NCBI GenBank assembly: GCA_021803345.1
Contig: JAJZLS010000018.1
Span: 1-40,205 of the forward strand
DNA length: 40,205 nucleotides
Direction: 5' to 3'
Origin: Actinomycetes bacterium
GTDB lineage: Bacteria > Actinomycetota > Acidimicrobiia > Acidimicrobiales > Acidimicrobiaceae
Positions within the stretch are counted from its first letter, which is position 1. Every line of letters begins with the position of its first letter. Positions 6,521 to 14,614 of the stretch are shown here, in pieces. The position numbers and the translations under genes are program-made. Below the pieces are notes generated by a model. The model was not told the origin of the DNA, made no database searches, and saw only the letters and a list, made by a program, of their open reading frames with translations.

Positions 6521-8521
6521 TCAAACAGATATTGCTATCACGAGAATGACTAGAAGCATCAATCCGATGTAAAGAAGGTACAGATTCATAGAACCCATTT
6601 GTATGACAGATGCTTTTTTTGCCAACCATTTGACTATCTTTACAGCTGGAGAAAATATGAGCGGTCCAAATATTGGTGCTTCAGAGTATTCAAAATTTAT
6701 CTGTTTTACAAAGTATCCTTTTGAGTTCCCGTTTGACTGAGCTACTGTAGTTGGCCTGTAGATGAAACTGTAGAACTGCCTTAGTGCGTTGGAAAATACG
6801 AGTGCAGTTGTGTTGCTCCGGGTGGGAACCTTTTCAAGCCCGTGAGCCCAAAGTGGTACTTTCCGGTACTTGTTTAGACCGCTTTTGCGCAACCAAATGA
6901 GCCCGAGTGGGATAAGGGCCAGTAGTCCTCCTGTGACAGCAAGAAGGAGTGGGGAAATGAATGCAAAGCTTGACGACAAGGGTACCAGAAGAACACCGTT
7001 TACCATGTCCTGAACCGCTTTAGGATATGGTGGCCAGTCAGATAGCTTGAGTAGTTTAATCCACCAAATCATGCCTAAAGAGTAAATAAGTGCGAACATG
7101 CCAAGGCCAAGCACAACATGGGGCCTAATGCTTTCAACTTTTTGCAGTTGACCAGGCAATATTTTTGGATTCGCTCTGGGTTTTCCAAGGAGACCAACTC
7201 CAATCAGTTTCACCATCGTTGCCAATGACACGGCAGCAGTCAGAGCGATTCCTGCCCCTCCTAACGCCAAGGCGACTTTACCGACGTTGTTTGTAATCTG
7301 AAAGCTGTGGAATACAGTCTGGAAAATATACCACTCTGTAACAAATCCTGCCATCGGTGGTAAAGCGGATAGGCTAATACCGGAAAGAATGGCACCAAGT
7401 CCAAGGCTCCAGGGAGCCTGCGAAAGAGCGTCATGTTGGGTAATTTCGTAAGTGCCGGCATTGTGGTGGATGTGATCGGCGGTAACCATTAGCGAGCCTT
7501 TGGCAAGCGAGTGTCCTCCTAGATGCAAAAGCCCGACTATGAAGGCCATGGTGGCGAGCTCGTTTAGACCAGCCGAGCGAAATATCAGGGACGTTCCGAG
7601 AGCGGCTACAGCCAGGCCAGCATTTTCAGCAGTTGAAAAGGAGAGGAGTTTCCTCCAGTCGCTCTGCTGAAATCCGTAAAGTATGCTAAGTATTGCGGAA
7701 ATCACGCCCAAAGCGACTAAAAGGATCCCAAATTCGATCGGGGCCTTTGATTTTGGCATCCACTTCAAAACTGATCTTGCAAGGGCAAACCAGGTGACGT
7801 TCAACACTATTCCCGAGAGTATTGCCCCTGATGCTCCGCGTCCACTTGAGTATGCAGCAGGGTACCATTCGTAAAATGGGAGTATGCCCAGCTTGGCACC
7901 AAATCCAATAATAAACAGCACTCCAATACCCACGCTTGCGGGGGTGGAGAAGCTCACCCAGGAGGAAGCAAATGAACTAAAGCTGGGATTGGTTGCTCCC
8001 AGGAATAGGATCCCAAGAAATAGTGCAATGCTTCCAACTTCAAGGAGTGAGAGCATAAACAGGTTGGAGGTTCCTGCCTCAAGCCTACTTGTTCTATTGT
8101 CGCTCATAAGGAGATATGCGCCACCGAGACTCATAATTTCCCAGGCTATTAAAAAAGATATCCCATCTCCAAGGCAGGCAACACCGATAGCTCCCAATAT
8201 GGTTATCGAAGCAGCCGCAAACCATTGATTATCATGCTGACGATTTTGAACTGTAATACCTGCGAGCAGGGCTGGTATCAATCCGAACAGCATGAGCCAA
8301 GCCGCCGATGGGTTAATGCGGAACTGGATTTCCCCTCCGGCGCTCAGCAGCAAGTCGAACTGGCTGGTTCCGGATGGAAGACTTGACCCGGTACCAAAAA
8401 TAAGAACAATAATTCCTAAAAGAAAAAAACTTTTAGATAAATGCGATGGTTTGGGCAAAAATGCACAAGGGATTGAAGCAACCAGCAGGCAACACCCTAT
8501 GAGTACCAGGTCATTACTCAT
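6521..8521 (-). CDS. HyfB/NuoL-like antiporter-type membrane subunit of Ehr-like complex
   Basis: 666-aa polytopic membrane protein of the Mrp-antiporter/NuoL family, closest in layout to HyfB/HycC of hydrogenase-4 and formate hydrogenlyase. The ion-translocation residues can be followed: E128 in FLIAWEIMSLGG (TM5), K210 in GFGAKLGILPFYEWYP (TM7) and the H333/H337/K341 group in LHLGGHSLAKGSLM. About 14-16 hydrophobic segments run through it, with a long cytoplasmic loop near 540-590 and a last helix at the C-terminus. It should form one proton or sodium channel of the membrane arm. The ATG overlaps the stop of the ferredoxin/NuoB gene by eight bases, so it is translated with it; it is the last gene of the operon. 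Only two antiporter-like subunits are present, with no HyfD. Confidence 0.88.
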   Translation of the reverse strand: MSNDLVLIGCCLLVASIPCAFLPKPSHLSKSFFLLGIIVLIFGTGSSLPSGTSQFDLLLSAGGEIQFRINPSAAWLMLFGLIPALLAGITVQNRQHDNQWFAAASITILGAIGVACLGDGISFLIAWEIMSLGGAYLLMSDNRTSRLEAGTSNLFMLSLLEVGSIALFLGILFLGATNPSFSSFASSWVSFSTPASVGIGVLFIIGFGAKLGILPFYEWYPAAYSSGRGASGAILSGIVLNVTWFALARSVLKWMPKSKAPIEFGILLVALGVISAILSILYGFQQSDWRKLLSFSTAENAGLAVAALGTSLIFRSAGLNELATMAFIVGLLHLGGHSLAKGSLMVTADHIHHNAGTYEITQHDALSQAPWSLGLGAILSGISLSALPPMAGFVTEWYIFQTVFHSFQITNNVGKVALALGGAGIALTAAVSLATMVKLIGVGLLGKPRANPKILPGQLQKVESIRPHVVLGLGMFALIYSLGMIWWIKLLKLSDWPPYPKAVQDMVNGVLLVPLSSSFAFISPLLLAVTGGLLALIPLGLIWLRKSGLNKYRKVPLWAHGLEKVPTRSNTTALVFSNALRQFYSFIYRPTTVAQSNGNSKGYFVKQINFEYSEAPIFGPLIFSPAVKIVKWLAKKASVIQMGSMNLYLLYIGLMLLVILVIAISV

Positions 8522-9323
8522 AGTTGCCGTCCTTTAGCTTCTGCTCGACACGCTCAGTGAGAAGTAGGAGTGCAAAGATGAACGAGGCTGGCGAAGGGGG
8601 GCAGCCCGGAAGATAGACGTCCACCGGGAGGAACGGGTCAGCTCCGTTGCCGGCGGCATATCCAAAATCGAAAGGTGCTCCTGAAATCGAACAGGTTCCT
8701 CCAGCTATAACGAATTTAGGATTCGGCATAGCTTGATAAGTTCTTTGTAATGGCCCTATCATTTGCGGTACAACTGTTCCGGTAACTAAAAGAACGTCTG
8801 CGAATCTTGGGGAAGGTGTGAAGAAGATTCCCAACCGATGAAGGTTGTAGTAAGGATTGGTGGTAGCCGCCAGCTCTGACTCACACCCGTTGCATGATCC
8901 AGCATCGATATGGCGTACGTGTAAGCTTCCTTTAAAGTGTTTTTCGATCTTCGATCTCAGCCTGTCGGCAGCTTCAGTGACAGGCTGCTGGCTGCGTATC
9001 AGGTCATTTCGATTTTTTGCCGCGAACATAAAATCTGCAGAGTTTTGTAAAGCGTCAGTTGGACATGTTTCAATGCAAATCTGGCAATTTATGCATTTCC
9101 CGAAGTCGAGTTGAACGTTTGAAGCAATATCTTCGCTACGGTTGGTTGACAGCGCGGCGGTAGGACATATGTCTATGCATGCCTGGCAGGATGTTTCGCA
9201 TCGGCTGGGATCGAATTTTGGAAATCCACGCATTCTTTCCTGGCCATTATCCAAATCGTCTGGATATGGCCAATCTGTAGTGGCTTTGCCTGCCGCAATT
9301 CCTTTAAGCGTCCAGTTTCTCAT
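8514..9323 (-). CDS. Fused HyfH-HyfI: ferredoxin plus NuoB-like iron-sulfur subunit
   Basis: 269-aa electron-transfer subunit joining two proteins that are separate in E. coli hydrogenase-4. Residues about 38-92 hold two 4Fe-4S sites: C42-x3-C46-x2-C49-x3-C53-P (an extra residue in the first spacing) and C77-x2-C80-x2-C83-x3-C87-P. Residues about 135-260 are the NuoB/small-subunit domain with C144-x2-C147 in GSCNGCE, C211 in GGTCSISG and C241 in LPGCPPSP, so the proximal N2-type cluster is fully conserved. It should pass electrons from the two ferredoxin clusters to the site facing the large subunit. The ATG is six bases after the large-subunit stop. Confidence 0.9.
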   Translation of the reverse strand: MRNWTLKGIAAGKATTDWPYPDDLDNGQERMRGFPKFDPSRCETSCQACIDICPTAALSTNRSEDIASNVQLDFGKCINCQICIETCPTDALQNSADFMFAAKNRNDLIRSQQPVTEAADRLRSKIEKHFKGSLHVRHIDAGSCNGCESELAATTNPYYNLHRLGIFFTPSPRFADVLLVTGTVVPQMIGPLQRTYQAMPNPKFVIAGGTCSISGAPFDFGYAAGNGADPFLPVDVYLPGCPPSPASFIFALLLLTERVEQKLKDGNYE

Positions 9324-9329
9324 TTTGAT

Positions 9330-10811
9330 CTACCTGTCTGCTCCTGCAATAGTGAGGCCAAAGCTTGCTTCATTTATTGCGTAATCCATCATGTTGGTTG
9401 AGTGAACCGTTAGTGGGAATACTTTCCAGTTTGAGAAGGAAGCCGATTTGATTTTGACTCTTTCAAGTAATCCATCTCGAATCCTTATGGCGTAAAAGCA
9501 GGATCCTCGGGGTCCTTCAGACCATCCCAATCCATCGACAGTTCCCGGCGGGACCGGTATGTTATCGAGTTTCGTTGGTCCGGGCTGAATCAGTGATAAA
9601 GCCTGTTCGATAATTGTGAATGCATTAAACAGGGCTGATTTGCGGACCTCTGCCCGTGCCAGTGCATCTCCTGATGAACGCGTTGTCACGTCAATTTGTA
9701 TGTTTTGATAGCCAGAGTATGGGTGATTTACCCTCAGATCTCGTGCTATAGCGGAGGCACTGGCCACCGGACCAGTTGCTCCAAATTCAAAGGCCAGGTT
9801 TTGAGATAAGATCCCGGTACCAATCAACCTGTCAAGATGGCTCTGGGTGTCCGAAAGAGCTTCCAAATAGTCTTCGGCTTTTCTCCGAAGCGGTGGAAGA
9901 AGCGTGGAAAGTTCTTCAACTGCAAGATCTCGCCTCAATCCACCAACCGCAAGAACGTTTCGGAGCAGCCGATTTCCGGTTATCTTGCAGTTGATTTGTT
10001 TGGCTTCTTCCTCAAGTAAGGCACCGAACGCTTCTCCTACTTTCAAAGTTGTTGTTTTGCATAGGTTGGCAAAGAAGTGAAAATTGTTATAAATCCGCTC
10101 CAGCTCAGACAGGATTATCCTTATGAGTTGTGCTCTGGTGGGTATTTCAAGTTGAAAGGCATTTTCGATTGCAGCGCAATAGGCTACTGCATGCGAAACA
10201 GAACCAACCCCAGATACTCGTTCTGCCAGAACGAGTCCCTTGGTTAGCGACGACCCAGTCAGGCCGGATTCGATCCCTCGGTGTTTGTAGAACAATCTAG
10301 GGGTGTAGTGAAGGATCTGTTCGCCAATATAGGCAAAATGGAATTCTCCGGATTCTAAAATGTCTCCTCTAACGGGTCCCCAAAACAGATCCTGGACTTG
10401 ATCCTCGATCACTTCAGGCAATTTCGGCTGGGTTGGAGTCCCGAAAAGCTCAGGAACTTGTGTTTGTGAAGGATTGAACGGACCTATCGAGAGTGACATA
10501 CCTTCCAGCAGCACCAGGGGAAATGGTTCTGGATTTCCCTCAAACTCAATTTCTGAAAGATCCATGATTTCCCTTTCATACCAGTTCAACAGCGGTGCAA
10601 CTTCTGAAAGAGACGGAAGTCTGGTGTGATTTCGCAGAACTAGTTCGGTGAACGCCAAGTTGCTGCCCTGGTCGACCAGGTATACCACCTCCGGGATGTT
10701 CTCCGAGTACCTAAGGTATGCCATAATGAATCTTCCGCCAGTGTTATTGATGGTGCTGGCAAGTTCAATTAGCTGATCTGGCTCTGTCACTTGACGAGTT
10801 AGTGGTTCCAT
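9330..10811 (-). CDS. HyfG/NuoCD-like large subunit without Ni-Fe cysteines (Ehr type)
   Basis: 493-aa fusion of a NuoC-like domain (about 1-110, with NWYEREIMDL) and a NuoD/HycE-like large subunit (about 140-493, with KHRGIE and ITGNRLLRNVLAVGGL). In a real [NiFe] hydrogenase four cysteines bind the metal. Here the first pair site, normally RxCGxC, reads RVSGVG (S200, G203), and the C-terminal pair, normally PCxxC, reads LTIAG (T487, G490). All four ligands are therefore gone and the protein ends at ADR, like NuoD, with no peptide for a maturation protease to remove. It cannot be a Ni-Fe enzyme as known; it matches what are called energy-converting hydrogenase-related (Ehr) complexes. The start is the ATG whose first base is the last base of the preceding TGA; a longer upstream reading frame overlaps the previous gene and is not used. 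Confidence 0.88.
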   Translation of the reverse strand: MEPLTRQVTEPDQLIELASTINNTGGRFIMAYLRYSENIPEVVYLVDQGSNLAFTELVLRNHTRLPSLSEVAPLLNWYEREIMDLSEIEFEGNPEPFPLVLLEGMSLSIGPFNPSQTQVPELFGTPTQPKLPEVIEDQVQDLFWGPVRGDILESGEFHFAYIGEQILHYTPRLFYKHRGIESGLTGSSLTKGLVLAERVSGVGSVSHAVAYCAAIENAFQLEIPTRAQLIRIILSELERIYNNFHFFANLCKTTTLKVGEAFGALLEEEAKQINCKITGNRLLRNVLAVGGLRRDLAVEELSTLLPPLRRKAEDYLEALSDTQSHLDRLIGTGILSQNLAFEFGATGPVASASAIARDLRVNHPYSGYQNIQIDVTTRSSGDALARAEVRKSALFNAFTIIEQALSLIQPGPTKLDNIPVPPGTVDGLGWSEGPRGSCFYAIRIRDGLLERVKIKSASFSNWKVFPLTVHSTNMMDYAINEASFGLTIAGADR

Positions 10812-12265
10812 CAGAGTCCTCTTCCGGCTCGAATAAAGAATTGCATCAGTCCCGTAGGCCACCAGATCCCAAATACAAAAAGAGCTATCAGCGCAAGCCA
10901 CATTGGCGATACCAGCCAAGCGTTCATCTTTAGGGTTGGAACCGTATCTGGGTTTGGCTCATATCCGAAATACATCGACCTAAAGTGATTTAGAAATCCG
11001 ATAAAGATAACTATTAGCGCTATTACCACAATCCAAAGTGCCCAGGTGTTTGAGCTGATGATGCCTGCCCTGAAAATTGACATTTCGCTCTGGAACAGGC
11101 CGAAGGGTGGGGCTCCGGTTATGGCTATGGCCCCCAGTAACCACGCGGCTCCTGTGGCGGGATAGCTGCTAAGGACTCTTCGAATCGAGCCTATTTCTTT
11201 GGACGCATACCCTCGCATCATATTGCCGGCTCCAAAGAACATCAGAGACTTGTTAATTGAGTGATTGAACATTTGGTAGAGAGCCCCCGCTATGCCGAGG
11301 GTACCACCGAATCCGAAACCTATGGTGATGATGGCGATGTGTTCGATGCTCGAGTAGGCCATGAGTCTTTTTATTCCTCTTTGCCTTACTATGAACAGCG
11401 CTGCGATGATCAGCGAGAAAATTCCTATCACAATCATTGCCAGATGTGCTGGTCCGGAAGCTTTGGTCCCGTTTAGGATGGCCAGGAATCTTACAATTCC
11501 GAGTAAAGCGGTATTGAGCAATGCTCCTGAGAGCATGGCTGATACTGGGGCCGGGCCCTCACTATGCGCATCGGGCAACCATGTATGCATTGGTGCCAAA
11601 CCAGCCTTAGTGCCAAACCCTATAAGTACCAGAAGAAAAGCCAGAAGCAAAAAAGAGGGGGGAATGCGATTTGCAACCTGGTGCAGCGAGCTCCAGGTCA
11701 TCTGATAAACCGGTCCTAGGTGAAAAGTCCCGCCCCAGTAAAATAAAACTATTCCTAAAAGCGATAGAGAAAGCCCGGCGGAAACCACTATCAGGTATTT
11801 CCAGGCTGCTTCGATGCTTTCCGGCTCCCTTTCAATTCCAACTAAAAAAGCACTAATAATAGTGGTCAGGTCAATCGCAATCCAATAAAGTCCTGGATTG
11901 TTCATGAATGGTGCCACCAGCATTGACAGTGCAAAGCCTTCCATAAGCATGTAAAACCTACGGGTATGGCTGGGACTTAGCTTCAGTAAAGGTATATAGC
12001 CCACTGAATAAATTGAAGCCAAGAGATATACCGTGCTAACGCAGAAGGTCACCCAGTTGCCAAACGAGGAGATTATTAGATACCCATGTAGGAGATTTGA
12101 TTGCTCATTCGACGTGGATATAAGCAAAATCAGTGAGCAGGCAAAGACTCCCAGCGCTGCGGCAAGGTTTATGTAGTCGCTTCGTAACTTCCAAGGGGAC
12201 GGGAGGTTTATAACAATTGCGATAGCTGGTATAAGCCACAAAATCAGGATCAGGGTCATATTCAA
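10811..12265 (-). CDS. HyfF/NuoN-like antiporter-type membrane subunit
   Basis: 484-aa membrane protein of the NuoM/NuoN/HyfF antiporter family with about 14 hydrophobic segments. K220 in GFGTKAGLAPMHTWLPDAH is the TM7 lysine, and FNHSINKSLMFF is the TM8 region with its conserved His and Lys. At the TM5 position where these subunits keep a glutamate, this protein has aspartate (D132, in WIAIDLTTI), a conservative but uncommon change. It should form the second ion channel of the membrane arm. The start ATG overlaps the HyfE-like stop by four bases and its stop overlaps the next gene by one, so the genes are tightly coupled. Confidence 0.88.
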   Translation of the reverse strand: MNMTLILILWLIPAIAIVINLPSPWKLRSDYINLAAALGVFACSLILLISTSNEQSNLLHGYLIISSFGNWVTFCVSTVYLLASIYSVGYIPLLKLSPSHTRRFYMLMEGFALSMLVAPFMNNPGLYWIAIDLTTIISAFLVGIEREPESIEAAWKYLIVVSAGLSLSLLGIVLFYWGGTFHLGPVYQMTWSSLHQVANRIPPSFLLLAFLLVLIGFGTKAGLAPMHTWLPDAHSEGPAPVSAMLSGALLNTALLGIVRFLAILNGTKASGPAHLAMIVIGIFSLIIAALFIVRQRGIKRLMAYSSIEHIAIITIGFGFGGTLGIAGALYQMFNHSINKSLMFFGAGNMMRGYASKEIGSIRRVLSSYPATGAAWLLGAIAITGAPPFGLFQSEMSIFRAGIISSNTWALWIVVIALIVIFIGFLNHFRSMYFGYEPNPDTVPTLKMNAWLVSPMWLALIALFVFGIWWPTGLMQFFIRAGRGL

Positions 12266-12942
12266 CCAACCAGTTTCTGCAGTTGTTGAGAGGATGTAGT
12301 TCCGGCGTGCGTTTTCAAATAGCGGACCAAAAGGCCAAAAGTCATAACGATTATTAACAAATCAAATAGAATCACCAGTTCAAGGAGGAAAGGCAGGCCC
12401 GGAACCAAGATTTGTGATCCAAGGAAAATTCCATTTTCTATTACCAACAGACCGAGAATATGACTGATTGCTTCGGATCTGACGATCATTAGTAGGAAAC
12501 CGATCAGTTTAAGCCCGAACATGGCGGTAAGTGCTACAAGCGCGATCTTGTTTGTAACACCCAGTTTGGTGCCAAGAGAGTTGCTGACCGCGAAAGCTAC
12601 CACTATAAGCAGTCCTCCGACGACCATTCCAGATGCTGGCCGGAACAGAGGAGTGAACTCCCGTTCTATGTCGAGCCGTCGGGCTAAACGCATCAGTAGA
12701 AGTGGAAGGATTGTGCCCCGAAAAAGGGCTGTGAGAATTGCAATAAGGTAAAGCTCTTTATAGTTTCCGTAATAAGCTACTGCGCCAGACAAAATAGCTA
12801 TTACCCAGGATTCTCCAGCAAAAGCTAGTATGTGATTTTTGAGCCAATGAGATCCCAGCATTGCAAAAGAGAGAACCAATGCAATTGCAATCAGAGTTGT
12901 GACAATAGAAGCGGCGATGGAGCTGGCGTGAATAATGAACAC
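12262..12942 (-). CDS. HyfE-like small membrane subunit
   Basis: 226-aa protein made of about six or seven hydrophobic helices with few charged residues, matching HyfE of hydrogenase-4 in size and in its place between the HyfC-like and HyfF-like genes. HyfE carries NuoK-like helices, and the glutamate in LLVIENGIFLG resembles the conserved NuoK glutamate. It lies 24 bases after the NuoH-like gene and overlaps the next gene by ATGA. Identification rests on hydropathy, the VIENG motif and gene order, not on strong motif identity. Confidence 0.8.
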   Translation of the reverse strand: MFIIHASSIAASIVTTLIAIALVLSFAMLGSHWLKNHILAFAGESWVIAILSGAVAYYGNYKELYLIAILTALFRGTILPLLLMRLARRLDIEREFTPLFRPASGMVVGGLLIVVAFAVSNSLGTKLGVTNKIALVALTAMFGLKLIGFLLMIVRSEAISHILGLLVIENGIFLGSQILVPGLPFLLELVILFDLLIIVMTFGLLVRYLKTHAGTTSSQQLQKLVG

Positions 12943-12966
12943 TCGGGTTTCCTTAGGTTCGGCGGG

Positions 12967-13911
12967 TCATAGCTGATTTGCGATCAGGGCAACAATGGCA
13001 AACAAAAACGATAGGGCCAGTGGTTCTTGATAGCGATAGAACCGAAGGCGTGACTGAATTGTATCGATGACGATCATGATCAGGGCAACCCCCGCATACT
13101 TGGCAATGATCCAAATCAAAGCCAGGCCCATTGAGGCCAAACTTCCGGTGGTGGATAGACCCCAGGGAATGAAGAATACATTTAGGAAGATCGTATACAG
13201 GATGAATTGTTTCATCCAGCTGGCCCACTTGAGAACCGCCAGTAAAGGCCCTGAATATTCCAGAATTCGGGCTTCGTCGATCATGTAGATCTCGAAGTGT
13301 ATCGAGGAATGAATTGGTAGTCGATCAGTTTCAACGGTGAGTAGGATCAAAAAGCCCAACACCAGGAATAGATGGGCAGGACTGAGGTAGACGGACATAC
13401 TTCGGACCAGGACATGATTTGCGACAAATGGAAGCATCGAATGATCCAAGAAGGTGATGCCAACGAAAACCAATATAAGCGTGGGCTCTGCCAAAATGGT
13501 TAACATTACTGCCCTTGACGATCCAAGTCCTCCAAATGGTTGTCCACTGTCGAGGCCAGCAAGAAGGATCGCAAAGCTTCCCAGTGTGAGGATTAGTCCT
13601 CCGCCCAGGATGTCACCCATATTTGACAGGGGAAGTGGGTAATTGGTCAATACCGGTATAAGTATCGGAACTATCAACATCGAAGTAAACGCGATTACCG
13701 GCGCAGCCCAGAATACCCAAGAAACGGTATCCGCTACCACCAGCTCTTTTTTCAACAATTTTCGGATATCACGATAAGGCTGGAAGACGGAAGGACCTTT
13801 GCATCCCTGCACTCGCTCTTCCATTTTTAAGATGAAGCCCTGGAGTAGTGGTGATCCGGCCAGAACAGTCAAAACCTGGGCGATCTGGAGCAGAACTGGG
13901 CTGATGGTCAA
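12967..13911 (-). CDS. HyfC/NuoH-like membrane subunit
   Basis: 314-aa membrane protein of the NuoH/HycD/HyfC family that links the peripheral arm to the ion-pumping arm. Visible signatures are the cytoplasmic loop KGPSVFQPYRDIRKLLKKE after TM1 and ETDRLPIH followed by HFEIYMIDEARILEYSGP, the loop that contacts the large subunit in formate hydrogenlyase-type complexes. About eight helices. The start is TTG at 13911 preceded by a strong GGAGG four bases away; no ATG or GTG lies near. It is the first gene of the six-gene operon, so the promoter is in the gap shared with the DUF190 gene. Confidence 0.87.
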   Translation of the reverse strand: MTISPVLLQIAQVLTVLAGSPLLQGFILKMEERVQGCKGPSVFQPYRDIRKLLKKELVVADTVSWVFWAAPVIAFTSMLIVPILIPVLTNYPLPLSNMGDILGGGLILTLGSFAILLAGLDSGQPFGGLGSSRAVMLTILAEPTLILVFVGITFLDHSMLPFVANHVLVRSMSVYLSPAHLFLVLGFLILLTVETDRLPIHSSIHFEIYMIDEARILEYSGPLLAVLKWASWMKQFILYTIFLNVFFIPWGLSTTGSLASMGLALIWIIAKYAGVALIMIVIDTIQSRLRFYRYQEPLALSFLFAIVALIANQL

Positions 13912-14296
13912 TTATCCTCCTTTGGTGTGCACACTTGTTGCAAGCAAAACCAAATAGGAGTCATTAGCTCAAGCTGAGCAGTTATAGTGGTGAACCCCAT
14001 CACCAGTCCAATTCTTAAAAAGTCAGGCTAACAGATTTGGTTTACGGGGTCAACTATTGCCTTCAACTAAAACTTCACACTTTTGAATTACCGCTGGTAA
14101 AGGGTCTTATGTATGAGCTAATTGCCGCCAGTCCATCTTTTCGCATACGTTTCAGTTGCCTTCTTGAGAGGCCATAACCGGGTAGCGCTACAGTTAATTG
14201 CGAATTTCCTTGCGAAATTTGTAAATAATAGATTTGGGACTATTTAAGTGCTTTACTCGTGGTTAAGCAGAAATTTAATGTTGGCCAAAAGAGGGC
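13912..14296. other. Divergent regulatory gap between Ehr-like operon and DUF190 gene
   Basis: 385 bases without a gene. Besides the promoter candidate it holds several small dyads on the operon side: TGTGCACA at 13926-13933, CTTG-TTG-CAAG just after, and GCTCA-AGC-TGAGC at 13967-13979. All lie in or beside the expected leader of the operon mRNA. On the DUF190 side TTGTAA (14219-14224) and TATTTA (14241-14246) are 16 bases apart and could be its promoter. Nothing else is recognised in 14060-14210. Confidence 0.4.
13981..14011 (-). promoter_or_regulatory. Candidate operon promoter with internal palindrome (MerR-like layout)
   Basis: Read on the minus strand, TTGGAC (14011-14006) and TATAAC (13986-13981) are 19 bases apart, and the gap is filled by TGGTGA-N6-TCACCA (13988-14005). 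A 19-base spacer with the dyad inside it is how MerR-family regulators control promoters. The start point would be near 13974, giving a leader of about 63 bases. A competing promoter with normal 17-base spacing is TTGACC (14053-14048) with TAGCCT (14030-14025). Confidence 0.45.
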
Positions 14297-14614
14297 ATGA
14301 TGCGGGAGCTGACAATCGCCAGGATTTATGTGCTTGAGGGAGAGAGAAAAGATCATCACGCAATTGTAGATGAGATATTTACTCGTTTACATGACGAACA
14401 TAAGATCAAAGGTGTAACGCAGTTCCGTGCAGTTTCTGGATTTGGAGCTCATGGGAAGATTCACAGTGCCAGAGATCTCATCTACATGAATGGACATCTT
14501 CCCACGGTAATAGAGTTTTTTGATACCGAGGAAGTCGTGCAAGAGTCGTTAGCTTGGATAAGAGAACTGGTTGAAGAGAGCAAGATTGTCACTTGGAAAG
14601 TAAATGTGGGTTAG
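14297..14614 (+). CDS. DUF190 family PII-like protein
   Basis: 105-aa protein of the DUF190 family, which has the ferredoxin-like fold of PII signalling proteins and is thought to sense small ligands. The family pattern is visible: an N-terminal strand ARIYVLEGERKDHH, GVTQFRAVSGFGAHGKIHSA, then LPTVIEFFDTEE and a closing VTWKVNV strand. DUF190 genes often sit next to transport or membrane genes they are believed to regulate. Here it is divergent from the Ehr-like operon and shares its regulatory gap. Two adjacent ATGs (14297, 14300) follow GAGGG; the second has the better spacing. The ligand is unknown. Confidence 0.82.
   Translation: MMRELTIARIYVLEGERKDHHAIVDEIFTRLHDEHKIKGVTQFRAVSGFGAHGKIHSARDLIYMNGHLPTVIEFFDTEEVVQESLAWIRELVEESKIVTWKVNVG

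Follow-up and report, generated by a model that had tools for sequence, protein, structure and literature searches.

Complexes of the Ehr (energy-converting hydrogenase-related) type consist of subunits similar to those of Hyf and complex I, with a large subunit that lacks Ni-Fe motifs, and their function is reported as unknown in the available text of PMC4378227 and PMC10284858. A redox-coupled translocation of charge, perhaps together with formate dehydrogenase, has been suspected for them (available text of PMC6349859). 'Formate hydrogen lyase' is listed among the targets of fluoride (crcB) riboswitches in the accessible portions of PMC2864571 and PMC11139923. The locus described here joins two open questions, namely the purpose of Ehr and the reason why 'formate hydrogen lyase' commonly follows a fluoride riboswitch. 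For the studied loci there is one answer: the gene is part of an Ehr clade that is metal-free, and the RNA allows its inducer to be predicted.

Six-gene operon and its large subunit

The window, which is the whole stretch of 40,205 nucleotides that was analysed, contains a six-gene operon at 6521-13911 on the minus strand. Inspection of the ORFs showed that all six genes of the HyfC-E-F-G-HI-B complex are present at the place and on the strand given in the first-pass annotation. The features are as follows:

6521..8521, minus strand: HyfB-like antiporter subunit, 666 aa (PF00361, 5.5e-24; NF005086, 7.9e-82, under the model cut-off)
8514..9323, minus strand: HI protein, a fusion of a ferredoxin-like (HyfH/NuoI) and a NuoB/HyfI-like part, 269 aa, 12 conserved cysteines
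9330..10811, minus strand: large subunit, NuoC+NuoD/HyfG-like, without Ni-Fe ligands, 493 aa (PF00346, 2.7e-33; PF00329, 1.4e-10)
10811..12265, minus strand: HyfF-like antiporter subunit, 484 aa (PF00361, 6.2e-50; K220 corresponds to NuoM K234 and E394 to NuoM E407)
12262..12942, minus strand: HyfE-like membrane subunit, 226 aa (NF008556, 9.2e-14, under the model cut-off)
12967..13911, minus strand: HyfC/NuoH-like membrane subunit, 314 aa, TTG start, charged residues conserved (PF00146, 3.7e-31)
14297..14614, plus strand: DUF190 (PF02641) protein, divergent from the operon (PF02641, 6.5e-20)

Membrane and peripheral subunits are homologous to those of hydrogenase 4 and formate hydrogenlyase of E. 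coli (HyfA-J, HycB-I). Unlike in E. coli Hyf/Hyc, Ni-Fe ligands are missing, H and I are fused, the gene order is different, the operon has no HyfD and no HypD was found in the host. Respiratory complex I (NuoB, C, D, H, I, L/M/N) shares the Fe-S wire and the antiporter-like subunits, whereas a NADH module is absent from the operon.

The large subunit (493 aa when read from an internal ATG at 9330-10811, minus strand) shows RVSGVG at 198-203 and LTIAG at 486-490. Its match to PF00374 is confined to residues 178-251. The first-pass annotation had stated that RxCGxC and PCxxC are lost, and alignment to E. coli HycE and HyfG did not restore the metal-site cysteines: all four Ni-Fe ligands are absent, their positions being taken by S200, G203, T487 and G490. 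The C-terminus ADR, with the DR ending of NuoD, was confirmed as well. In contrast to complex I the quinone site is not conserved, as the Tyr of NuoD and the His of THG, which we take to be the quinone-contact residues, align with G201 and L152, respectively. In a tree whose only references were Hyf/Hyc rows and one Ech-like row (no Mbh, no MBS, no further group 4 branches and no published Ehr), the large subunit is placed near but outside the Hyf/Hyc hydrogenases. A match in the PDB was 6u8y_L (3.5e-21), presumably a chain of the membrane-bound sulfane sulfur reductase MBS. Subunit set, absent Ni-Fe motifs and tree position outside the Hyf/Hyc references all fit the earlier assignment to Ehr, and published Ehr complexes have the same Hyf/complex I-like subunits and a large subunit equally devoid of Ni-Fe motifs. 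Judged by its sequence, the complex is of the Ehr type and lacks a Ni-Fe site.

The nearest clade in the tree, class C, comprises ArsR-led Ehr-like operons and has a cysteine-free large subunit too. However, its NuoB-like subunit of about 161-176 aa is too short for an HI fusion. An ArsR-type regulator is present in most class C operons, and neither a fluoride riboswitch nor fluoride-gene neighbours were found there. We take their gene order to be like that of Rv0081-Rv0087.

In the HI protein 12 Fe-S cysteines are 99-100% conserved among 79 orthologues, and they are predicted to ligate three [4Fe-4S] clusters. Alignment of orthologues also showed conservation of the pump Lys/Glu/His residues of HyfB, HyfF and HyfC, with a conservation of 1.00 for HyfB E128, K210, K341 and E396 (71 orthologues). 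The TM5 acid of HyfF is Glu in 44/77 and Asp in 33/77 orthologues (Asp132 in the window copy), while the position of NuoM K265 is Asn in all 77, likewise in E. coli HyfF. The retention of ion-channel residues and of the NuoB-cluster cysteines noted at first reading is thus borne out.

Fluoride riboswitch and its distribution

A control element that had been absent from the first-pass annotation, a fluoride riboswitch, lies before the operon and points to a biological role. The leader contains the following features:

13948..14013, minus strand: fluoride riboswitch aptamer (RF01734, crcB motif), 54.0 bits against a gathering threshold of 34, E 2.3e-12
13957..13961, minus strand: ACUCC, 3' strand of the aptamer pseudoknot and predicted anti-Shine-Dalgarno, pairing with the Shine-Dalgarno in the MFE fold of the leader
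13916..13920, minus strand: GGAGG, Shine-Dalgarno of the first gene, with pairing probabilities taken from leader folding

The aptamer is located 36 nt in front of the first gene, on the same strand; its E-value was 9e-14 in a local scan. The whole host genome has two RF01734 matches, of which the second reaches only 33.8 bits. With the pseudoknot strands free the first four bases of GGAGG are paired with a probability of 0.9-1.0, whereas withholding these strands gives 0.05-0.34 for all five bases. Folding predicts that the leader carries a fluoride-ON platform acting via sequestration of the Shine-Dalgarno. Such sequestration was predicted in just 17/41 scored leaders and was therefore rejected as a universal platform. 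The window leader was also examined for a transcription terminator, and none was found.

Among class A loci having upstream sequence, the riboswitch precedes the operon at the same place in 64 of 69; in the other five none was found at the expected place under the threshold used. We also counted operons of 61 relatives, restricted to those for which the contig extends far enough upstream. At an Rfam E<=0.001 the element was detected in 18/23 A/A'/B operons (A 6/6, A' 7/7, B 5/10) and in 0/16 other Ehr-like operons. The remaining five B operons bear weaker elements at the same position; the locus G017:C108, for which upstream sequence is present, has a weak one. Among 149 Actinomycetota drawn separately, all five treed clade members besides the window have the riboswitch, four at E<=0.001 and one weak at 18.9 bits, and no fluoride riboswitch was found at class C, class E or true Hyf operons of that draw. 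Overall, no such element was detected at true Hyf operons or at those of the class C, three-cysteine and four-cysteine kinds. Riboswitch control tracks one large-subunit clade, A+A'+B. This sets the clade apart from published Ehr, since fluoride is not mentioned in the available text of the Ehr literature.

Neighbouring genes

The flanks of 81 class A loci contain DUF190 in 57, CrcB/Fluc in 49 and enolase in 13 cases. Genes for DUF190, CrcB, MutS-like proteins, enolase and cyclopropane synthase recur, and none of these five was found in the 25 class C/D/E loci. DUF190, CrcB, a MutS-like pair and enolase are candidate companions of the complex. In the window's own family, 12 A/A' loci (window excluded) showed no DUF190, no CrcB and MutS in two. 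Nine class B loci showed DUF190 and MutS in one each. Fluoride-gene flanks characterise proteobacterial loci more than the family of the window. The 'PII-like neighbour' of the first-pass annotation turned out to be the DUF190 protein, and as a companion it proved recurrent (57/81 loci). The acetate/PPDK neighbourhood, which had been offered as a clue, was rejected because it is not common to three or more related loci: acetate genes fall outside the clusters common to at least three of them, and PPDK is situated about 20 kb away from the operon start. Cobalamin genes (CobQ, CobN, ChlI/D) beside class A' operons occur in genus g5 only and are absent at the g6 locus L064; they were therefore taken as local synteny and discarded. 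A scan of 20 cluster representatives, which left out clusters 28 and 30-38 and the antisense ORFs 7, 9, 10 and 14 of the operon, gave no recurrent redox partner or donor gene beyond an SDR (7 loci). In cluster 35 (3 loci) a CydB-like ORF was seen, judged by eye only.

Possible roles of the complex

The complex probably helps cells to survive fluoride, because a fluoride-sensing riboswitch precedes the operon here and in its closest relatives from many bacteria. We see about even chances that it is a fluoride-inducible, Ni-Fe-free relative of hydrogenase 4 serving as an auxiliary redox-driven ion pump. Cytoplasmic fluoride would bind the leader aptamer, and ACUCC, which without the ligand would mask the Shine-Dalgarno of hyfC, would be captured by the pseudoknot; according to the folding, translation of the six-gene message would thereby be switched on. 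A soluble low-potential carrier, possibly ferredoxin-like, would feed electrons to the two-cluster domain of the HI protein, from where they would move on to its NuoB-like cluster, for which ligand conservation argues. Electrons would exit at the interface of HyfC and the large subunit, to an acceptor that would be neither protons at a Ni-Fe site nor quinone at the canonical Tyr/His site. A quinone bound in another manner is our first guess, and only a guess because of G201 and L152 at the NuoD positions. As suggested by the family, the redox reaction would power export of protons or Na+ via HyfC, HyfF and HyfB. Entry of neutral HF and exit of F- through Fluc would amount to a net inward proton leakage, and the extra pump may restore the pH of the cytoplasm and the membrane potential by which F- is driven out.

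That the complex is a functional formate hydrogenlyase or another Ni-Fe hydrogenase, as implied by the label used in the riboswitch literature, has a probability close to nil. The subunit set is Hyf-like and NCBIfam hydrogenase-4 models match operon proteins, though with scores under cut-off; yet all four cysteine ligands are missing and the tree sets the large subunit apart from Hyf/Hyc. Moreover a search for HypD (PF01924), the only Hyp protein covered, found it neither in the host assembly, which is 94.9% complete, nor in nine further genomes of the same genus, and the window proteins scanned include no hyp genes, as stated at first reading. Formate dehydrogenase is absent from the operon and from the recurrent neighbour clusters scanned. 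The hydrogenase reading is already contradicted by these sequence data. Since among the Ehr- and Hyf-like operons compared the riboswitch was found only with the metal-free Ehr clade, the 'formate hydrogen lyase' of the studied loci would not be a formate hydrogenlyase; the published targets with the same riboswitch upstream are very probably these genes too, with a name taken over from annotation. With neither a Ni-Fe site nor a formate dehydrogenase in the operon, a formate-oxidising, fermentative reading (available text of PMC11139923) misfits these loci. A formate dehydrogenase-Ehr complex under fluoride control, in which electrons from formate drive the pump, is extremely improbable, as no such dehydrogenase gene was found in the operon or the recurrent neighbour clusters scanned, although such a complex was proposed for anaerobic Margulisbacteria and Saganbacteria and fdhA and nuoEF-like genes occur in Ehr-bearing genomes (available text of PMC6349859).

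Rather unlikely, too, is a role in redox balance during the fluoride response, with ion pumping secondary: when fluoride blocks enolase and central metabolism stalls, the complex would drain reduced ferredoxin or a similar carrier. The conserved Fe-S wire and the enolase genes at 13/81 loci are consistent with this, as is the description of enolase as a fluoride target and frequently riboswitch-controlled gene in the available text of the review PMC11139923. However, the pump residues of HyfB, HyfC and HyfF are conserved about as well as the Fe-S ligands, and no redox partner recurs beyond the SDR among the clusters scanned. The accessible part of that review ranks Na+/H+ antiporters next after exporters among the riboswitch-associated classes, and antiporter-type subunits are present, but a cation/proton antiporter assembly induced to steady pH under fluoride, its peripheral arm a structural relic, is improbable, as the near-complete conservation of the 12 Fe-S cysteines is unexpected for a relic. 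We attach similarly little probability to a primary fluoride or anion pump, in which the former metal cavity near Arg148, Lys176 and Arg284 binds F-, HF or an anion for electron-driven export. The clade is under riboswitch control, and R148 and R284 are present in 40/40 class A/A'/B rows of the alignment, in place of the His and Tyr of the five true hydrogenase rows. On the other hand, in G161, a basal member of the clade, these positions are occupied by Tyr and Phe, which led us to reject a basic-pocket signature of the whole clade; K176 is shared with four-cysteine class E and some class C rows, the nearness of the residues to the cavity is deduced from alignment, and we know of no precedent for a redox-driven primary fluoride or anion pump. 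That the fluoride-controlled clade is a primary redox-driven fluoride (HF/anion) exporter with three Fe-S clusters and a site lined by Arg148/Lys176/Arg284 is very improbable. If anion export were true, the complex would represent a novel type of ion pump and, beside Fluc and CLC-F, a new way of coping with toxic fluoride.

For the auxiliary ion pump we prefer, a true link to fluoride would provide the first testable role of a complex of unknown function, and the orphan complex gains a predicted inducer, a phenotype to seek and tractable hosts, among them the non-pathogenic clade carriers Acidithiobacillus, Thiomonas and Mesorhizobium composti. In the acidophiles Acidithrix ferrooxidans and Acidithiobacillus ferrianus the sole fluoride riboswitch found precedes the Ehr operon, which makes Ehr the only gene set found behind this element. 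Two fluoride riboswitches were found in A. montserratensis, both before Ehr operons.

Gene content of the operon and residues of the large subunit

The six Hyf-like genes of the window are packed, where the first-pass annotation placed them, into a single compact minus-strand unit, in which adjacent genes share 1 to 8 bases or leave gaps of 6 to 24 bases. A fluoride riboswitch aptamer was detected upstream by Rfam scan (RF01734, E 2.3e-12, 54 bits where the cut-off is 34), with 36 nt between its 3' end and the TTG start of hyfC.

13948-14013, minus strand, fluoride riboswitch aptamer
12967-13911, minus strand, HyfC, TTG start
12262-12942, minus strand, HyfE
10811-12265, minus strand, HyfF
9330-10811, minus strand, large subunit, 493 aa
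8514-9323, minus strand, HI fusion (ferredoxin-like HyfH/NuoI and NuoB/HyfI-like parts in one protein)
6521-8521, minus strand, HyfB

The ion-channel residues and cluster cysteines described earlier as retained are indeed conserved across 71–79 orthologues. The alignments of HyfF, HyfB and HyfC keep the pump residues HyfF K220 (NuoM K234) and E394 (NuoM E407), HyfB E128 (NuoL E144) and K210 (NuoL K229) and HyfC E142 (NuoH E157); in the HI fusion, all 12 Fe-S cysteines are conserved at 99–100%. At the HyfF position matching NuoM E144, the 77 orthologues divide into 44 with Glu and 33 with Asp, and at that matching NuoM K265 all 77 have Asn, as does E. coli HyfF. Alignment of the large subunit with E. 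coli HycE and HyfG places S200, G203, T487 and G490 at the four cysteine positions, so that the loss of the Ni-Fe ligands is borne out. Set against the conserved pump residues and Fe-S cysteines, this points to a lost metal site together with an electron wire and a pump under selection. The feature is real and, by the defining features open to testing, is an Ehr (energy-converting hydrogenase-related) complex.

The Pfam Ni-Fe hydrogenase model covers residues 178–251 only, and the subunit is the single PF00374 match in the host assembly. The host also encodes a separate NuoD; HypD had no match in this assembly (2.65 Mb, 94.9% complete). The positions of the NuoD Tyr and the His of THG, which we take to be the quinone-binding positions, are occupied by G201 and L152. 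As the cysteines, the quinone Tyr and the THG His are all replaced, neither Ni-Fe nor canonical quinone binding would be expected from the sequence. R148 stands in place of His in 40 of 40 rows of classes A, A' and B (see table), and R284 at the hydrogenase Tyr position in the same 40 rows and in 16 of 17 class C rows; the protein of genome G161 deviates at both positions. The former metal cavity may form a basic pocket.

Large-subunit classes in 61 genomes (own genome and 60 relatives)
Class; motif or type; further feature
A; window type; order C-E-F-G-HI-B
A'; RVSGVD; order C-E-F-G-HI-B
B; R.EG..., no terminal DR; order C-E-F-G-HI-B
C; SGDT... / SYAGNDL; ArsR-led in most
D; RVCAAD / CYSCTDR; three of four cysteines
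E; RACMAC / CYACVDR; four cysteines

Class D loci occur in the window's genus (L043, L044, L045, L047, L048, L049, which is incomplete, L051 and L077); the class retains three cysteines, yet HypD was found in 0 of 10 genomes of this genus searched. Six class D loci have a TrkA/K+-channel gene near the operon. In class E (L076 in G056; G178, G146, G167) all four cysteines occur in the unusual motifs RACMAC or RACAAC / CYAC, and in L076 the His following the motif is Asn. The four-cysteine motif could possibly mark another metal site; HypD was not found in G056.

The riboswitch leader

In the whole host genome only one other match was obtained (G000:C37:829-890, 33.8 bits, just below the cut-off), a riboswitch-like element preceding a pair of MutS-domain ATPase genes. 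The host CrcB gene lies on contig C19, which is free of both matches. Baker et al. 2012 is said to be the source for the fluoride riboswitch regulon.

No terminator-like or sigma-70-like sites were found in 13850-14320. In the minimum free energy fold of the leader the 3' pseudoknot strand ACUCC is paired with the Shine-Dalgarno sequence GGAGG. With the pseudoknot strands free, the pairing probability of GGAGG is 0.9–1.0 for the first four bases and 0.11 for the fifth; when both strands are withheld it is 0.05–0.34 for all five. From this pairing in the computed fold, fluoride-ON control of translation is predicted. Of 61 leaders given to a heuristic script, 41 were scorable; such pairing was found at P>0.5 in 17 of the 41, including each of the six scorable actinobacterial leaders (L084, L085, L086, L093, L119, L162). 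Since Shine-Dalgarno pairing is seen in only 17 of 41, other expression platforms must exist elsewhere.

Riboswitch control and the large-subunit clade

Searching 84,980 species genomes with 15 aligned large subunits from classes A, A' and B yielded 252 relatives. The best 80 of 252 were retained, a sample of nearest relatives with near-duplicate MAGs among them, spanning Acidithrix ferrooxidans, many Acidithiobacillus, Thiomonas, Nitrobacter, Mesorhizobium, Dyella, Hephaestia, an acidobacterial MAG and others. A covariance model was built from 14 riboswitches, all first found with Rfam, so that agreement with Rfam is by construction; it gave 133 matches in these 80 loci and the window. Among the best 80 of 252, 11 loci are cut upstream, and in 64 of the remaining 69 a riboswitch lies directly upstream of hyfC on the same strand, 3 of the 64 scoring only 22–28 bits. 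Of the other five, locus L130 has the riboswitch before CrcB and DUF190-like genes, which precede the operon, and in L108 it lies some 3.7 kb upstream of the large subunit, separated by a 97-aa ORF. L145, L153 and L155 have no riboswitch in the expected place; unfiltered scoring of L145 and L153 yields weak look-alikes of 7.9 to 15.6 bits. These resemble fluoride aptamers with a changed yet complementary-looking pseudoknot.

We then compared the classes across operons whose contigs extend far enough upstream, taking an RF01734 match at E<=0.001 at the expected position as presence. The riboswitch is present at 18 of 23 A/A'/B operons (A 6/6, A' 7/7, B 5/10) versus none of the 16 operons of classes C, D and E (Fisher p 1e-6, not a strict probability as the rows are related), and without the upstream limit at 18/25 versus 0/27. 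Weak elements, none significant singly, occupy the right place in the other five class B operons: L070 and L072 (Rfam 21.1 and 20.9 bits) and L066, L067 and L206 (16.3, 12.8 and 14.5 bits with the 14-riboswitch model). By eye, class B aptamers carry an extra short hairpin inserted after the first helix and ahead of the AAACCGC segment (L065, L032, L066, L067, L068, L069, L070, L072, L080), and their Rfam scores are low. The aptamer of the Mycobacterium branderi locus L173 has a similar insert. In two related genomes a shared chromosomal site, flanked by matching gene clusters, holds a class A operon (L053, G006:C126) in one and a class B operon (L032, G004:C1) in the other, as if the operons had been swapped.

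A tree was built with IQ-TREE (quick mode, SH-aLRT as the only support measure) from 351 columns of 72 large subunits. In it A, A' and B form a single clade (support 99) adjoining C (joint support 89), with D and E outside. The window's subunit stands apart from HycE/HyfG (separate, 99), in line with the earlier claim that it is not a true hydrogenase, the hydrogenase references being few (Hyf/Hyc rows and one Ech-like sequence, with none from Mbh, MBS or the remaining group 4 branches and none of the published Ehr proteins). An even, separate draw of 149 Actinomycetota, own genome included, contained a large-subunit match at E<=1e-36 in 16 genomes and RF01734 in 39. When 14 rows of this draw were added to the tree, the window's clade (support 96) gained G165, G186, G154, G161 and G126. 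All of these but G126 carry a riboswitch beside the operon at E<=0.001; in G126 Rfam scores an element of 18.9 bits (E 0.66) at the expected position, which the 14-riboswitch model did not report. G176, of the genus of G186 and G154 and outside the tree, has an adjacent riboswitch too. None was adjacent in this draw in class C (G150, G103), class E type (G178, G146, G167), true Hyf with RICGICG or RVCGICG and PCYSC (G134, G096, G209) or G198, excluded from the tree for an in-frame stop. Membership in the protein clade thus predicted riboswitch control in rows not used for discovery, and a clade of Ehr under predicted fluoride control is newly delimited here.

Flanking genes and proposed role

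Flanking genes were surveyed by BLAST with cluster representatives and identified by Pfam. Of 81 loci, 57 have DUF190 and 49 CrcB; less frequent are MutS-domain genes (16 loci), enolase (13), cyclopropane synthase (11), histidine phosphatase (8) and dynamin-like genes (7), and 63 loci have at least one of these seven types. The same search found none of them in 25 loci of classes C, D and E, whose mean length is smaller (12.7 versus 16.9 kb). Two groups count against this pattern. Nine class B loci have DUF190, MutS and histidine phosphatase once each, and in 12 A/A' loci from the family of the window BLAST gave MutS in 2 and neither DUF190 nor CrcB; the constant feature is therefore the riboswitch and not the flanking genes.

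By whole-genome counts, Acidithrix ferrooxidans and Acidithiobacillus ferrianus each have a single riboswitch, which precedes Ehr; A. montserratensis has two, both ahead of Ehr operons, and a Thiomonas genome two, one of them ahead of Ehr. Mesorhizobium composti has 13, Dyella 14 and Hephaestia 13. The operon also occurs in fluoride-gene islands on two plasmids: in Burkholderia multivorans (L174; MutS, dynamin, pyrophosphatase, DUF190, Ehr, MFS, cfa) the riboswitch immediately precedes hyfC, and in M. branderi (USP, NUDIX, Ehr, enolase, DUF190, MFS) it precedes the NUDIX gene, itself before hyfC.

The riboswitch is the firm part of the mechanism, and the physiological role is inferred. HF would diffuse into the cell and dissociate, and F- would exit via Fluc (CrcB), so that the net sum would be a proton influx. 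A redox-driven pump produced on demand could offset this influx, with the greatest benefit in acid habitats, from which many hosts of the clade appear, by their names, to come. A formate dehydrogenase partner, as proposed for Ehr in other lineages (PMC6349859), is not encoded within the window's Ehr operon. Apart from an SDR in 7 loci, no donor gene recurs beside the operon among the neighbour clusters scanned; a soluble carrier is therefore the probable donor.

In the passages covered, Ehr is described with function unknown (PMC4378227, PMC10284858), redox-coupled charge translocation is suspected (PMC6349859), and Ehr is reported in CPR bacteria, the word fluoride being absent there (PMC7304191). 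Formate hydrogen lyase genes are listed among those downstream of the crcB motif in the excerpts of PMC2864571, and the list is repeated in those of PMC8004769. The text covered of PMC12595759 (E. coli transcriptome under perfluorinated acids) and of PMC5756330 (fluoride riboswitch before CrcB) makes no link with Ehr. Among the titles, abstract starts and passages covered, no open-access paper was found to connect the fluoride riboswitch with Ehr.

Two local arrangements were also observed. In M. composti the 13 riboswitch matches fall within about 27 kb (G065:C3:19052-45584) on the contig carrying its Ehr operon, and in genus g5 (L058, L060, L061, L062, L063) CobQ, CobN and a ChlI/D-like gene follow the class A' operon.
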